Below, piece by piece: positions 3,696 to 24,872 of a stretch of DNA of 29,510 nucleotides. Both the position numbers and the translations under genes were made by a program. This stretch comes from a virus, in IMG/VR virus record IMGVR_UViG_3300047440_000285, positions 1 through 29,510 of that record. One strand, 5' to 3'. The notes below the pieces were generated by a model that had not been told where the DNA came from, did not search any database, and was given only the letters and a program-made list of their open reading frames with translations. Every line of letters begins with the position of its first letter. Position 1 is the first letter of the stretch.

Positions 3696-5024
3696 CTAAC
3701 CCCCGTCGCGCTCAATTCGCAATGGTGCGGCGTTCGGCGCGGCGCCAGCGGGCGCCCCAAGTCTTGCCGCCATGCTAGGATAAATCTGATTCACAACTTG
3801 CTGGCGCGCATTTAGCGAATTCAATGTCTGATCTACTTGCGTTTGCAATCCATCGCGCCCAAGCCGTAACGCATTAGCGCCGAATGGGTCGGCTAGCTGC
3901 CCTTGCATCAAGCCCATGTCCGTTTCGCTGATCGCGCCGAGAGCATAGGCTTCTTTCAATTGCAGTAGCAATGTAGACGCCTTCTGTCCAACGGTCGCCT
4001 TTTGTGTTGGTGACAATTGATCGAATGAACGCGGATCGTAGTTGTCTAGCGCTTTGCGGTAATCCTGCAATAGATTCATCGCTGTTGACGCGGCAATCTG
4101 TGAGCGCATGACTTCGGCCGATGGCATGCCTTGCTGGCCCGCTGCTACCGCGCGCTGTGCATTCGCCCGCATTTGTTCTAACGCGCCGTGATAGCCGAAT
4201 TGCTCTGCCGCAAGTGCGCGCTGCTGTCCGAATTGCCGGTCTTGCTGCATCTGCTGGAAACGTTGCGAATCCATTAGATTTCCGTGTCCATAGGCATATT
4301 GCGCCGCCTGTTCTTGCGCCTTGTCTAGCTTGTCCTCGCCGCGCTCTTGCGCGTATTGCGAATTAACCGACATCTTGCCTGTGATCGGATCGAAAACACC
4401 CTTGTCCGTGACCCGCTGTTGCGATGCGCCGAGCGCTTGCTGTAGAACAGCGGCCCCGGCCCGCTGTTGCCCTTCGTCACCCATCATCAAGCCCAGAATG
4501 CCCCATCGTTGCGCCTGCGCGTTCGCGTCGCGTCGCTGCGCGATTTCGTCAGCGGTGAATGTCGGGGCGGCCGGAGCGTTCGCGCGTGCCTGCGCAGAGT
4601 CAACCAAGGCTTGGCCCGGGTTCGCGTAGCCTGGAGGCGCGGCCGGTGCATTCGAGACGCCTTGCGCAGCACCACGCGGCGCAAGGGCTTGCGTGAGAAC
4701 CTGCGGCCCCGGTTGACTCGCGGGCGTGCTCTGCGGGGCGGGCGGCCCCGTCATGCCTTTCGGTTGTGGCGGCCCCATCATGCCGGCGGGCGCCTGCGTA
4801 GGCATCGGCGCATCGGGCCAGGGTTGCGGGTCGGGTGCATCCGCCTCTCGACTCCCAAGGGTTCGCGCGAGCACCTGGGGCCGGGTGTAGGTGCGCAGCG
4901 TATCCGGCCCGGCGGCTTCGTTGCCGCGCAATAGCGTATACGAGCGCGAACGGGCAACGGGTGCCTCTTCGGCGGGTGCCTCTACCCATATGGGCTTATT
5001 GTGGCGATCCGTCATCCATGGCAT
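3696..5024 (-). CDS. Putative internal virion protein, Pro-rich N-terminus and helical Gln/Ala-rich body
   Basis: The product is 442 aa. Residues about 60-150 are Pro/Gly/Ala/Gln-rich and disordered-looking, with MGPPQPKGMTGPPAP as an example. The remainder is Ala/Gln/Arg-rich and strongly helical, for example SQRFQQMQQDRQFGQQRALA. Such a body fits a phage ejection or internal core protein. The ATG at 5024 is preceded by GGGGAGG, which begins in the TAG stop of the upstream gene, so translation is probably coupled. The stop lies one base from the GTG of the next gene. I do not recognise a named domain. Confidence 0.7.
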   Translation of the reverse strand: MPWMTDRHNKPIWVEAPAEEAPVARSRSYTLLRGNEAAGPDTLRTYTRPQVLARTLGSREADAPDPQPWPDAPMPTQAPAGMMGPPQPKGMTGPPAPQSTPASQPGPQVLTQALAPRGAAQGVSNAPAAPPGYANPGQALVDSAQARANAPAAPTFTADEIAQRRDANAQAQRWGILGLMMGDEGQQRAGAAVLQQALGASQQRVTDKGVFDPITGKMSVNSQYAQERGEDKLDKAQEQAAQYAYGHGNLMDSQRFQQMQQDRQFGQQRALAAEQFGYHGALEQMRANAQRAVAAGQQGMPSAEVMRSQIAASTAMNLLQDYRKALDNYDPRSFDQLSPTQKATVGQKASTLLLQLKEAYALGAISETDMGLMQGQLADPFGANALRLGRDGLQTQVDQTLNSLNARQQVVNQIYPSMAARLGAPAGAAPNAAPLRIERDGG

Positions 5025-5039
5025 GACTCGGCACCTCCC

Positions 5040-5459
5040 CTAGCGCGGCGGGGGCATCGCGCCCGGTTGCACACCCCGAAGGGCGGCGGCCTGGAGTGCG
5101 GCGGCTTGCTGCGGATTCATCCCACCCCCACCTTTGGCGAAGCCGGGAGAAGCCCCCATCCCACGCCCTGCGCCTTGTGGCGCCCCTGGGGGCATGCCTT
5201 GCGCACCTTGCGGCATCGGGCCGCCCTGCGGCCCCGGGGGCATCCTAGAGGGCATCGCGCCGGCTTGTGGGGGCATTGCCTGCGGCATGCCCCCGCCCTG
5301 CGGCCCCATAGGCACTCCGCCGGCCCCTGACAGCATGCCCTGGGGCACCGGGCCACCTTGCGGAGCACCACGGCCCGCCTTAGCCCCTTGCGGGGGCATC
5401 CCTTGGGGCATGCCTTGCGCGCCGGCCTGCGGGTTCGCGTTACGTGGTTGCCAACTCAT
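5040..5459 (-). CDS. Low-complexity Gly/Pro/Gln/Met-rich virion-associated protein
   Basis: This 139-aa protein consists almost entirely of Gly, Pro, Gln, Ala and Met in short variable repeats of the type PQGMP/PQGG. It ends AGAMPPPR after a short Ala/Leu segment (QQAAALQAAALRG). It resembles the portal C-terminal tail, which ends GPGAMPPPQ, in composition and motif. The ATG at 5459 follows GGGGG with a spacer of about 5 nt. It is probably disordered and, by position, a virion or assembly factor. The biased composition makes homology unreliable and no function can be assigned. Strict placement between genes with proper signals argues that it is translated. Confidence 0.68.
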   Translation of the reverse strand: MSWQPRNANPQAGAQGMPQGMPPQGAKAGRGAPQGGPVPQGMLSGAGGVPMGPQGGGMPQAMPPQAGAMPSRMPPGPQGGPMPQGAQGMPPGAPQGAGRGMGASPGFAKGGGGMNPQQAAALQAAALRGVQPGAMPPPR

Positions 5460-5471
5460 GATTGCCCCCGA

Positions 5472-5987
5472 TTAGAAAAAGGATGTCGGCGCGGTGCGGA
5501 AATACTGGCTTGCGATGTCGCCATATCGGCCGCCCAAGGCTTGCGCCGCCGCGCTTGCTTCGTCCTGTTGCTTTTTGCCGAGATAGGCCCCGACAACATT
5601 CGCGATCCCGCCCGCCCAATTGGGCGCCCCGCCGTTGACTGAGCCGGTATTGAGCGACTGGCCTAGCCCGCGAATGGCGTCAGCGGTCTTAAATTGCTTC
5701 TGGATCTTCTCTGACTCCGGCGCGAGTCGGTAGCGGCCCGCCATGGCTTCGGCGGCTTCGTCCATCTTCTGCGCCTGGATACCGCCCGCCGCCGCGCGTT
5801 GCGCTGCTGCTGCCATCTGATCGGCTTGCGCCGTCTGTGCCGTTTGGTTCGCGGTAGCGACATCCGGGGGCGGAGGCGCGGCCCATGCGTTTTGGATCGG
5901 CATCCCGCCGGGCAACTGCGACCAATCGGCTTGCCGAGGAATTGTCGGATCGGTTGCCGGGTCGTAATACTTGCTGCGTTTTTGCAT
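5472..5987 (-). CDS. Conserved-type small structural protein of unknown function
   Basis: The product is 171 aa. A Pro-rich N-terminal third (MQKRSKYYDPATDPTIPRQ) leads into a long Ala/Gln-rich helical region around residues 45-105. A Gly-rich hydrophobic patch (NWAGGIANVVGAYLGKKQQ) and an Ala-rich C-terminus follow. It may be a minor virion protein cooperating with its neighbours during DNA ejection, but I recognise no family. The start at 5987 has GGGG directly abutting the UAG stop of the S74-domain gene, indicating termination-reinitiation coupling. Confidence 0.7.
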   Translation of the reverse strand: MQKRSKYYDPATDPTIPRQADWSQLPGGMPIQNAWAAPPPPDVATANQTAQTAQADQMAAAAQRAAAGGIQAQKMDEAAEAMAGRYRLAPESEKIQKQFKTADAIRGLGQSLNTGSVNGGAPNWAGGIANVVGAYLGKKQQDEASAAAQALGGRYGDIASQYFRTAPTSFF

Positions 5988-5996
5988 GATGCGCCC

Positions 5997-7472
5997 CTAA
6001 TTCAATGCAGCGTAATTGACCATCAAAACGCCACGGAATGACCGAACCGCATCGGGCACATAGCGGCGCACTTCCTGCGCCATGACGCCCACGCGCGGCA
6101 GGCTTTCGCCGATGAACCGATAGCGGTAGATTCCGAAGCCCTTCGAATGGCGCCCAATGCGCCGCACGTCCGTCTTAACGCGCCGATCCGACATCATGAA
6201 CATTCCGGCCATGCCGCTACCGGCTTGCAGCATTTGCCCCGTTGCCGCGTTCTTCATTTGCTGTTGCTGCATGCCGGCGTCGAATTGCTGTTGTCCTGCG
6301 CCGCTGTAGTCCACACCCTGACCCATGCCGGCTTGGCTGAAATTGGCGAAATCGGGGCTAGAGACTTGCTGACCATTCAAGAGCGCATTTAGGGCGTTCA
6401 ATGACCAATTCTGTTGCTGCTGCGCTTCGGCAATCTGCTGTTGACGCAATGTGTTTTGGTACTGCGCCGCTGCTTGCTGTTGCTGGAAATTCTGCGCGCC
6501 CGCTGCCTGCTGCTGCTGGAATCCCTGCTGCTGCTGATTCAAGCCGAACTGCGAACCGGACAGCCCTTGCTGGAATGCCGCGTTTTGTGCCGCGAGTTGG
6601 TTCTGTTGCGCTTGGCTTCCAAAGCCGAACATTTGTCCGGCGGCTGTGTTCCCGAATTGCGCTTGGTTCTGTGCTTCGCCGGCTTGCTGTTGTCGCAATG
6701 CCAGATCCATTTGATTATTGGTTGCGGCTTGCTGGCTTGCGCCAGACTGCGCGGACATCATCGCTTGATTGTAGGCATCGGTCTTTTGCCGATTGAACTG
6801 ATCCATGGCTTGGCTGTAGCCGGCAGAGCCTTGCGTAATGCCCTGATTCGCTAATTGGGTCTCCATTTGCGTCTGCTGTTGCTGCCATTGCGGGTCGAGC
6901 CGGCTTGTCGCCTGATTCATCAATTGATTGTAGGCAGTGTCACGCGAAGCGCCCGACCCTTGCACACCTTGCAAGTTGCCGTAATCGATTTGGCTTTGGA
7001 GTTGCGGCGTACCTTGTCGGGACGTGTCTATGTTCTGAGCCTGCGGCCCCATGCCGAACGGGTTCGTGGTCGATTGCAGATTGCCGGCCTGCGCACCTTG
7101 CGCTAGCGGGGTAAAGCCGCTGAAATCCATCGGCCCGTTCTGCATTTGCTGGCCAACTTGCCCCATCAGGGATTGGGCGATATCGGAGCGGCCAGACTGG
7201 ATCGCCTGTTGCTGGTCTAGTGCGTTCTGTTGCTGCGCGTTTAGGGTCGTGTTCTGTGTCCACGACATGACAGGTTTTCCCTGCGAGTCGAGAACCGCCG
7301 ATCCGTCTGGATTCGTTGCCGCTTGGGATGAATAGGAAATCGTCCCCCACGGATTATTCTGTGTCATCCGGTTCGCATAATTCTGCTGTAGCAATTGGTC
7401 ATTGCTACTCTGCGCAGTCTTCTCCGCGAGCGCGGTGTAATCCGGGGGCGGAGGGCCTGACTTTTTTGACAT
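5997..7472 (-). CDS. Gln-rich virion protein with C-terminal Peptidase S74-type domain
   Basis: The product is 491 aa. The N-terminus (MSKKSGPPPPDYTALAEKTA) followed by NNPWGTISY matches a recurrent podoviral family seen just downstream of the tail hub gene. The middle (about residues 200-400) is extraordinarily Gln/Asn/Ala-rich with several QQQQ runs and probably forms long helices. The last ~64 residues begin SDRRVKTDVRRIG and include GIYRYRF, VGVMAQEV and VNYAALN, the signature of Peptidase S74 intramolecular chaperones that help fibres trimerise and often self-cleave at the Ser-Asp step. The ATG at 7472 with AGGGG five bases upstream is preferred over a TTG at 7505 that lies inside the preceding gene. 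Whether cleavage occurs is unknown. Confidence 0.8.
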   Translation of the reverse strand: MSKKSGPPPPDYTALAEKTAQSSNDQLLQQNYANRMTQNNPWGTISYSSQAATNPDGSAVLDSQGKPVMSWTQNTTLNAQQQNALDQQQAIQSGRSDIAQSLMGQVGQQMQNGPMDFSGFTPLAQGAQAGNLQSTTNPFGMGPQAQNIDTSRQGTPQLQSQIDYGNLQGVQGSGASRDTAYNQLMNQATSRLDPQWQQQQTQMETQLANQGITQGSAGYSQAMDQFNRQKTDAYNQAMMSAQSGASQQAATNNQMDLALRQQQAGEAQNQAQFGNTAAGQMFGFGSQAQQNQLAAQNAAFQQGLSGSQFGLNQQQQGFQQQQAAGAQNFQQQQAAAQYQNTLRQQQIAEAQQQQNWSLNALNALLNGQQVSSPDFANFSQAGMGQGVDYSGAGQQQFDAGMQQQQMKNAATGQMLQAGSGMAGMFMMSDRRVKTDVRRIGRHSKGFGIYRYRFIGESLPRVGVMAQEVRRYVPDAVRSFRGVLMVNYAALN

Positions 7473-22822: not shown

Positions 22823-22927
22823 CTACCAATACTTTACAACGAAATGCACAAATACCGCCGCGAGAGAGAAGACTAGGACAACCACTAGAACAATCCAGGC
22901 GATGAGTAATTTAGAGAAGACTTGCAT
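22823..22927 (-). CDS. Possible 34-aa hydrophobic peptide
   Basis: The ORF MQVFSKLLIAWIVLVVVLVF continues to VHFVVKYW and is almost entirely one transmembrane helix with a basic N-terminal residue and Lys-Tyr-Trp at the end. No ribosome-binding site precedes the ATG at 22927, and a GTG further upstream at 23053 is no better. The composition argues for a real membrane peptide; the missing signal argues against it. It lies in a part of the early operon with few clear genes. Confidence 0.32.
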   Translation of the reverse strand: MQVFSKLLIAWIVLVVVLVFSLAAVFVHFVVKYW

Positions 22928-23517: not shown

Positions 23518-24378
23518 CTACGTCCACGGGTCGTTAGCCCTAGGCAGCATCCGATACGGCGATTCTGAGCCCGTTTTGGTGCCTTCCTGAGCCTTCCCGG
23601 TTCCAACGCTTCCCGCATCCCGCCGCATTCCGGAAACCGTGGCGAAGAAATACGCCGGGCCTTTGCCTGCGACGATGGCCTTAGCCGCTGCAATGCGGCA
23701 TTCGCCGGGGGTTGCACCGTCAGCGACGAGGGCGGCAAGCCGGGGGTCGTTTGGGGCGATTTCCAAGCCGGCCGCCGCCGCCGCTTGTGCGTGCGCATGC
23801 GCGGACCCGCCCGGGACGCGCGCGGCGGCTGCTTTAAATGTATTTATTGTTTCATGTTTCATGGGTGGTATTCCGGGTGGTATTACCGCCGTATTACCGT
23901 CGTATCCCTTAGTTGTGCTCCCCAGTGCTCTAGAGTCCTCTGCCTTAGACACCCCTATACCCAAGCTGACGGACTCAAGTATTGCCTCTTTTGTGGTTTT
24001 CGCCACACTGTTCGTGTGTGCAGGAGATGGGGTTATCAACAGGTTTGGCGACTGTTTCCCCTTCCATCGCTGCTCGACGTTAGTGCGTTGTATTTCGCTA
24101 GCTTTCTGTTGTCGAGCAATCTCTTCGTCGCAGCGTTTCTGATGCCATCGGCCGTCCGATTCCAGCGTAAAGAATTCTGTAAGAACGCGGCGGACGGCTT
24201 CGCGTTCGCTCTGTGTAATTGCTGGGAGCAGTCTATAGATTGAACTGTAATCACCTGGGAGTGGTAATTCATGGATATAGTAAGTTTCAATCATTAGGTG
24301 ATAGGCAGCTTTCTCCATCCATCCCAAGTGTCCGGTATGAGCGGCCCAATCGCCGAGGTTGTGCTGATAGAAACGCAT
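23518..24378 (-). CDS. Replication initiation protein, DUF1376 (YdaU-like) N-terminal domain
   Basis: The 286-aa protein begins MRFYQHNLGDWAAHTGHLGW. It continues MEKAAYHLMIETYYIHELPL and REAVRRVLTEFF, the DUF1376 pattern of a winged-helix-like DNA-binding domain (residues about 1-95). A low-complexity linker of about 80 residues follows. The C-terminal part (LAALVADGATPGECRIAAAK, AYFFATVSGMRRDA) resembles the region that in related proteins contacts the helicase or its loader. By position after the Cro-like gene it corresponds to lambda O. The DNA encoding the linker holds iteron-like repeats and an AT-rich tract, as does the lambda O gene. Confidence 0.84.
   Translation of the reverse strand: MRFYQHNLGDWAAHTGHLGWMEKAAYHLMIETYYIHELPLPGDYSSIYRLLPAITQSEREAVRRVLTEFFTLESDGRWHQKRCDEEIARQQKASEIQRTNVEQRWKGKQSPNLLITPSPAHTNSVAKTTKEAILESVSLGIGVSKAEDSRALGSTTKGYDGNTAVIPPGIPPMKHETINTFKAAAARVPGGSAHAHAQAAAAAGLEIAPNDPRLAALVADGATPGECRIAAAKAIVAGKGPAYFFATVSGMRRDAGSVGTGKAQEGTKTGSESPYRMLPRANDPWT
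23832..23940. other. Putative origin of replication inside the replication gene
   Basis: The plus strand shows a 31-bp tract (23832-23862) that is about 80% A+T in a GC-rich region. Next come GTATTCC/GTATTACC/GTATTACC/GTATCCC copies at 23868, 23880, 23891 and 23902 (11-12 bp steps), two of them within perfect GGGTGGTATT repeats at 23863 and 23875. GTGCTC copies at 23915 and 23925, with a variant at 23935, follow in exact 10-bp steps. Helically phased repeats beside an AT-rich element in the linker of an O-like gene match the arrangement of lambda ori. Function is inferred. Confidence 0.6.
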
Positions 24379-24434: not shown

Positions 24435-24662
24435 TCAGGGCTTATGGCGATGGCGGGCCAATTCCTGGGCACGAGCCCAATGGCGTTTGTCCTCTAGGCG
24501 TAGGGCTTGGTCGAGTCGCCATCGGGCGGCGATGACGCGATCAGCGAGGCGGGGGGACAGGATGGGGGGCCATTGCCGGACGGCTTGGGGGGTGCACCCG
24601 ATGGCGCGTGCTGCTGTTGTGGCGTTGCCGCCGAGCAGACAGAGGGCTTCGGTCTTTGTCAT
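24435..24662 (-). CDS. Cro-like helix-turn-helix regulator (P22 Cro / YdaS type)
   Basis: The 75-aa protein begins MTKTEALCLLGGNATTAARA, then IGCTPQAVRQWPPILSPRLA and DRVIAARWRL. This is the pattern of P22-type Cro proteins: a GG...A..IG..PQAV.QW helix-turn-helix followed by a dimerisation segment. It should bind operators in the adjacent control region and repress the early promoters. I chose the ATG at 24662, which fits the family; an in-frame ATG at 24683 would add seven residues. Neither has a strong ribosome-binding site. A long basic tail (LEDKRHWARAQELARHRHK) is unusual. Confidence 0.8.
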   Translation of the reverse strand: MTKTEALCLLGGNATTAARAIGCTPQAVRQWPPILSPRLADRVIAARWRLDQALRLEDKRHWARAQELARHRHKP

Positions 24663-24826: not shown

Positions 24827-24872
24827 GCGCTCCCATGTGCTCTCTTGTGCTCGCGAGTGCTCTTGTGTTCTG
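24827..24872 (+). repeat. Helically phased GTGCTC array (five 10-bp units)
   Basis: GCGCTC at 24827, GTGCTC at 24837, 24847 and 24857, and a degenerate GTTCTG at 24867 follow at exactly 10-bp steps with variable 4-bp spacers. All copies face the same side of the helix, as expected for cooperative binding of a protein. The same hexamer and period recur in the putative origin at 23915-23940. Candidate binders are the Cro-like protein or the DUF1376 initiator. Confidence 0.7.

Follow-up and report, generated by a model that had tools for sequence, protein, structure and literature searches.

An ordered repeat array in the linker of a phage DUF1376 gene is likely to mark a replication origin

The window analysed here is the whole 29,510 bp stretch of IMG/VR record IMGVR_UViG_3300047440_000285, an incomplete virus record. 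Since it carries terminase, portal, RusA-like, exonuclease-VIII-like and RecT-like genes, we assigned it to a tailed phage or prophage. The gene studied encodes a member of the DUF1376 family, with a score of 80.2 bits against the Pfam gathering cut-off of 30.1 for PF07120. The gene and its two conserved parts are as follows.

23518-24378, minus strand: DUF1376 gene, 286 aa, predicted replication initiator, annotated by PHROGs as 'primosomal protein'
24115-24372, minus strand: DNA coding for the DUF1376 domain, aa 3-88 (Pfam E=1.5e-22), predicted to be winged-helix-like and likely to bind the iterons, without binding data
23608-23790, minus strand: DNA coding for the conserved C-terminal part, about aa 197-257, with tblastn matches to L031, L029, L014, L015 and L024

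No recognised helicase or loader gene was found within the window. Among the relatives, none exceeded about 50% protein identity, so the exact array of the window could not be traced through close relatives. A DNA-level search of named phages for relatives of the DUF1376 gene found none, and a scan of genome contigs gave one. Relatives of the exo gene reached only about 30% identity and were left out of the analysis.

All the repeats sit in linker codons, between the Pfam DUF1376 domain and the C-terminal part common to relatives. Reading along the minus strand, in the direction of the gene, three hexamers of the GAGCAC type at 10-bp steps are followed by four iterons whose steps are 11, 11 and 12 bp, with an A+T tract coming last.

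23915-23940, no strand assigned: hexamers GTGCTC (23915), GTGCTC (23925) and GTCCTC (23935) at exact 10-bp steps, probable regulator sites, without binding data
23902-23908, minus strand: iteron copy 1 in gene order, GGGATAC (plus strand GTATCCC)
23891-23898, minus strand: iteron copy 2, GGTAATAC (plus strand GTATTACC from 23891)
23880-23887, minus strand: iteron copy 3, GGTAATAC (plus strand GTATTACC from 23880)
23868-23874, minus strand: iteron copy 4, GGAATAC (plus strand GTATTCC from 23868)
23832-23866, minus strand: A+T tract with 7-bp repeats, at the position of the heptad tract of the family, a proposed region of unwinding or single-strand capture

On the plus strand the iterons start at 23868, 23880, 23891 and 23902 (steps 12, 11, 11), and GGGTGGTATT is found in perfect copies at 23863-23872 and 23875-23884. 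Because the steps are of 11 bp, the copies land in different reading frames, and they encode G-Y, G-N-T, V-I-P and G-I-P. The A+T tract, read in the gene direction, has a period of 7 bp (ACCCATG AAACATG AAACAAT AAATACA TTTAAAG). Positions 23832-23862 are 81% A+T and overlap the 30 bp with the highest A+T content in the window. A previous sequence-only reading had described a tract of about 80% A+T, iteron-like copies at 11-12-bp steps and hexamers at 10-bp steps in this linker; its coordinates and steps all held, and the observation was correct in nearly every detail. The 7-bp period of the tract had gone unnoticed.

A standard repeat finder, at its settings, reported no repeats in the window, and therefore we used autocorrelation together with synonymous-codon shuffles within the gene, which keep both the protein and the codon use. 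Four 8-mers at 11-12-bp steps with no more than two mismatches to the first occurred at one place only, in three overlapping registers, where 0.03 such patterns are expected per block-shuffled genome. The linker region held 13 pairs of 9-mers at iteron lags, compared with 5 at the next best place in the genome. Against the synonymous shuffles, the iteron-lag count was 13 versus a mean of 1.6 and the heptad-lag count 5 versus 0.3, each reached in 0 of 200 shuffles, while the remaining lags together fell below the null (0 versus 4.0). The two lag sets were taken from the pooled histogram of the family, in which the window contributes one of 66 genes. The repeats of the window are thus neither a product of chance nor a by-product of the protein sequence.

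We then turned to the family, for which DUF1376 genes were gathered from viral contigs and reduced to 66 non-redundant members. Linker repeats exceeded the synonymous null at p<=0.01 in 55 of the 66 genes, and 48 of 66 remained above it on lags not divisible by three, that is, off frame. The overall test was not significant for the terminase relatives L015, L020 and L024 and for the L107-type genes. The density of repeat pairs per 100 nt was 10.1 in the linkers and 0.76 in the N-domain DNA. The pooled lags peaked in two series, an iteron series at 11-12, 22-23, 34-35, 45, 57 and 68 (about 11.3 bp) and a 7-bp series at 14, 21 and 28. After addition of the E. coli K-12 gene ydaU, significant heptad, iteron and other lags were found in 50, 43 and 10 of 67 genes; among 150 further ORFs taken from these loci the numbers were 4, 8 and 7. 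As a hold-out, 11 phages from another collection, not used in finding the lags, showed heptads at p<=0.05 in 10 cases.

The two modules keep a fixed order, with the heptads lying 3' of the iterons in 48 of the 51 genes having both, at a median iteron-to-heptad distance of 56 nt. Repeat sequences differ between DUF1376 subfamilies, and in most of the genes tested they lie in the same part of the gene. The iteron words, which we also sought elsewhere in the loci as possible autoregulatory sites, formed no comparable arrays there and were mostly scattered chance words. These results show selection at the DNA level on two ordered modules, iterons of about 11 bp and then a 7-bp tandem tract, across the DUF1376 family, and the two-part layout is present in most of the examined relatives of the window gene. 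In several records a DnaB-like helicase gene or an IstB/DnaC-like gene lies directly downstream.

The window meets the bipartite criterion that we propose for the DUF1376 type, since its iterons at about 11-bp steps are followed in the gene direction by a 7-bp tract. Its repeat sequences are its own. The iteron GGTAATAC falls outside all the common iteron classes and forms a separate type. The heptad consensus of the family is MACCARW, and only the first window unit comes near it, without meeting the criterion; the later ones are A-rich and lack the CCA core. We regard the window heptads as a drifted version without this core in most units, as in the relative L029. On the coding strand A and C make up 75% of the family tract, which is only modestly A+T-rich (51%, compared with 44% for the gene), so unwinding by low melting energy alone is not the general case.

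Several individual loci are worth recording. The junction of iterons and heptads often has a conserved GCT (L004, L005, L077, L136 and others), as in CAATGCT CACCAGA, AACGGCT ACCCAGT and GAAAGCT AACCATA. In L020, at about nt 184-236 of the DUF1376 gene, the GGGACA words of the linker are also clustered within the DNA of the conserved domain. L006 has tandem DUF1376 genes (5001-5576 and 5573-6340); the first is without linker repeats and has an HNH-like part at its end, and the second carries them.

One could object that the repeats merely mirror selection on the linker peptide, and some linkers do encode repeated peptides, for example SERNANA or HQTPDTRHQTPD. This explanation is all but excluded by the excess over synonymous shuffles and by the off-frame lags in 48 of 66 genes. 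Furthermore, a period of 11 or 7 bp is useless for a peptide repeat, and the window copies encode different residues.

To look at the heptads without using the protein, we ran three patterns of bare heptad DNA against 2.9 million viral contigs. Among the loci recovered away from contig edges, the tracts lay inside DUF1376 ORFs in 64 of 70, 75 of 77 and 74 of 78 cases, and every DUF1376 heptad tract found in this blind scan was on the coding strand. A reversed control pattern with the same composition and period hit 6 places, none of them in DUF1376. Patterns two and three share some of their loci, and the counts for these two are lower bounds. The heptad tract thus comes near to being diagnostic of the DUF1376 gene family, and this DNA pattern can identify the family without reference to the protein. 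Apart from these tracts, CCAGACA heptad-like satellites were seen in L182, L204, L207 and L215, several with an exact 28-bp spacing; on checking, those of L182 and L215 lay outside DUF1376 genes.

The strand bias raises the possibility that the tract acts on RNA, as a Rho-utilisation site or another RNA-binding site in the middle of an early operon, with a C-rich, G-poor coding strand. In its favour, the family tract is 75% A+C and always on the coding strand. However, one would expect to meet Rho sites in numerous genes, whereas the tract is nearly confined to DUF1376 genes; it is accompanied by iteron arrays on its 5' side, and the window tract is A-rich, not C-rich. We consider an RNA role very unlikely.

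For the question of which part of the protein reads which repeat, we compared the tail after the DUF1376 domain with the iteron type. Among the assigned genes, an ARW tail went with GAACGCA iterons (46 of 46), a GGRP tail with AACCC..GAAACC iterons (19 of 19) and an RHRER tail with GTGACG or CCTGCAACG iterons (19 of 19). The classes were defined after looking, many genes including the window were left unassigned, and shared ancestry contributes to the match. Iteron type also correlated with overall N-domain similarity, significantly but weakly (partial r 0.17, compared with 0.08 for the C-end). The match favours the N-domain, together with the long helix that ends it (residues 81-109 of the AlphaFold2 model), as the iteron reader, which is support and not proof in the absence of binding data. 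The tail of the GGRP class is often KKGGRPRK, which is AT-hook-like (L153, L154, L126).

The AlphaFold2 model (pLDDT 87) has a winged-helix-like fold. Its fold matches are weak, with Z 6.2 at most, and those to initiator/Rep chains, plasmid Rep included, and to DnaD N-domains (Z 4.6-5.7) stand among many other winged helices. Foldseek gave no match below E 0.3, and a sequence search of solved structures returned nothing meaningful. The heptads accompany several unlike C-terminal domains, and therefore the C-domain is unlikely to read them.

Two further explanations can be weighed here. According to the first, replication slippage produced the repeats neutrally, in a linker that is disordered and tolerates change. 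The linkers are indeed variable, and some heptad matches outside DUF1376 are satellite-like (L182, L215). Against this, the same CCA heptad and iteron periods recur in a fixed order in unrelated linkers and hosts, repeat order and spacing are conserved in independent lineages, the iteron class is matched to the protein tail, and control ORFs rarely show such repeats, which leaves slippage with very little to recommend it. According to the second, the repeats form another kind of DNA site: one for partition or incompatibility, one for packaging, or a hot spot of recombination at which C-domains are swapped. Genes with alike N-domains and iterons have differing C-terminal domains, so that the linker is a swap point, and plasmid iterons also serve in partition or copy control. 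However, an initiator gene beside helicase or loader genes, together with an array of sites and a strand-asymmetric tract, suits an origin best, and the tract is present with varied C-domains. A site of this other kind is likewise very improbable.

The hexamers call for a separate explanation, as they recur in the divergent control region of the window.

24827-24872, no strand assigned: second GTGCTC array, five copies at exact 10-bp steps, outer copies mismatched, in a divergent control region
24435-24662, minus strand: small Cro-like regulator gene, PHROG 409 transcriptional regulator (E=2.7e-6), sub-threshold Pfam match to P22_Cro (E=5e-4)

This second array lies between two operons, a leftward one that includes DUF1376 and the Cro-like gene and a rightward one with the exonuclease. 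The paired hexamer, with up to two mismatches, had 8 matches, a count that 0 of 100 shuffles attained, in comparison with 2.7 expected. Because the array recurs in the control region, we read the hexamers, also those beside the iterons, as the operator of a phage regulator belonging to the early switch, which is likely although binding data are lacking. The regulator has not been identified; the Cro-like product of 24435-24662 is one possible candidate. It is also possible that both arrays are bound by DUF1376 itself, which would thereby repress the operon to which it belongs. Lambda CII likewise binds direct repeats spaced 10 bp. The sequence-only reading had suggested two binding proteins, perhaps the initiator plus a regulator, which gains support from the recurrence of the array near the Cro-like gene; as a correction to that reading, we take the hexamers for a probable operator.

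Taken together, the best explanation is that the replication origin of the phage lies in the DUF1376 linker, as an origin within an initiator gene of the lambda O or RepA_N kind with an architecture of its own. We consider this likely, although it is inferred, without replication, binding or melting data. Two general criteria for such an origin are met: a short direct-repeat array under DNA-level selection in the coding region of an initiator, and a tract of the unwinding type that keeps to one side of the iterons (the 48 of 51 genes above, with the 81% A+T tract of the window). Cumulative GC skew, proposed earlier as a check, gave a broad trough at 22.75-24.25 kb with its lowest point at 22859, a signal that both the orientation of the genes and the incompleteness of the contig confound. 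The proposal of an iteron-like origin in this linker is supported as the best reading, and far beyond the window, with origin activity remaining an inference. Neither outcome that would have refuted it applied: the repeats persist in relatives, with different sequences by subfamily, and are not explained by the protein.

In the mechanism that we propose, the DUF1376 N-terminal domain and the following helix would bind the iterons. This complex of protein and DNA would then open the neighbouring tract and hold one of its strands, possibly with one subunit per 7 nt. The swappable C-terminal domain would deliver the opened DNA to a helicase or to a loader protein, in the way that lambda O works with P. 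In the window, the hexamers next to the iterons would likely give a regulator encoded by the phage a further site, tying origin use to the early-gene switch. A bolder reading takes the MACCARW tandem beside the iterons as a dedicated, sequence-specific single-strand track on which, after opening, each initiator subunit would bind one heptad; it would be a counterpart of the DnaA-trio of bacterial origins, but one found almost only in the DUF1376 family. This we put forward tentatively, with the balance tilting slightly against it.

Officially the DUF1376 family, widespread in phages, has no known function, and those papers in the literature searched that mention it name it only once each. The origin reading gives it a testable role and would narrow the origin of many phages and prophages at once down to about 100 bp. 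Literature on DUF1376, ydaU, oriJ and phage heptamer origins, as far as open-licence papers go, does not describe the element, which does not show its absence.

Among the closest known systems is the lambda O gene, in which ori-lambda, as in Stx phages, has iterons within the initiator gene that are bound by O (PMC7466680). Iterons and then an A+T-rich tract lie mid-gene in the same order in the gene direction, and lambda has P downstream. The earlier analogy to lambda O accordingly holds as a likeness and not as family membership: DUF1376 is a different Pfam family from lambda O, the whole window protein matches only DUF1376 at E<=1e-3, and the A2 set of DUF1376 members gave no O-family match. 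Lambda iterons are of 18 bp at 20-24-bp steps, whereas those of DUF1376 have steps of about 11 bp with an added 7-bp tract, and the heptad signal in lambda O was not significant (p=0.058).

The RepA_N initiators, such as pSK41 Rep, have the origin in the centre of rep, where the encoded residues are dispensable, and a DnaD-like N-domain (PMC5703833). The DUF1376 model has weak fold matches to initiator/Rep-DNA structures of this sort among many other winged helices, at most a possible likeness. RepA_N initiators belong to Gram-positive plasmids, unlike the phage DUF1376, and Pfam RepA_N had no match among 53 DUF1376 members at E<=1. In Gram-negative phage-inducible islands (PICIs), iterons and an A+T-rich region form origins tested as replicons (PMC6092414); in contrast to DUF1376, the origin lies beyond rep, with its A+T region between two sets of iterons.

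In the Rac prophage an active origin is named oriJ (PMC3945230), and its DUF1376 gene in E. coli K-12 is ydaU, followed by ydaV. The ydaU linker contains significant iteron-lag repeats (17 compared with 2.4, p=0.002). In the copy of E. coli K-12 MG1655 (L152:8120-8977) we observed iteron-like linker repeats of 11-12 bp (GGTGTTCAAACA, GATGTTGAAGT); the gene is without CCA heptads. No source placing oriJ within ydaU was found in the literature searched, and it remains possible that oriJ lies in the ydaU linker. The heptad tract raises the mechanistic question of how phage initiators open DNA, for which ydaU of E. coli K-12 offers a harmless laboratory model to start from.
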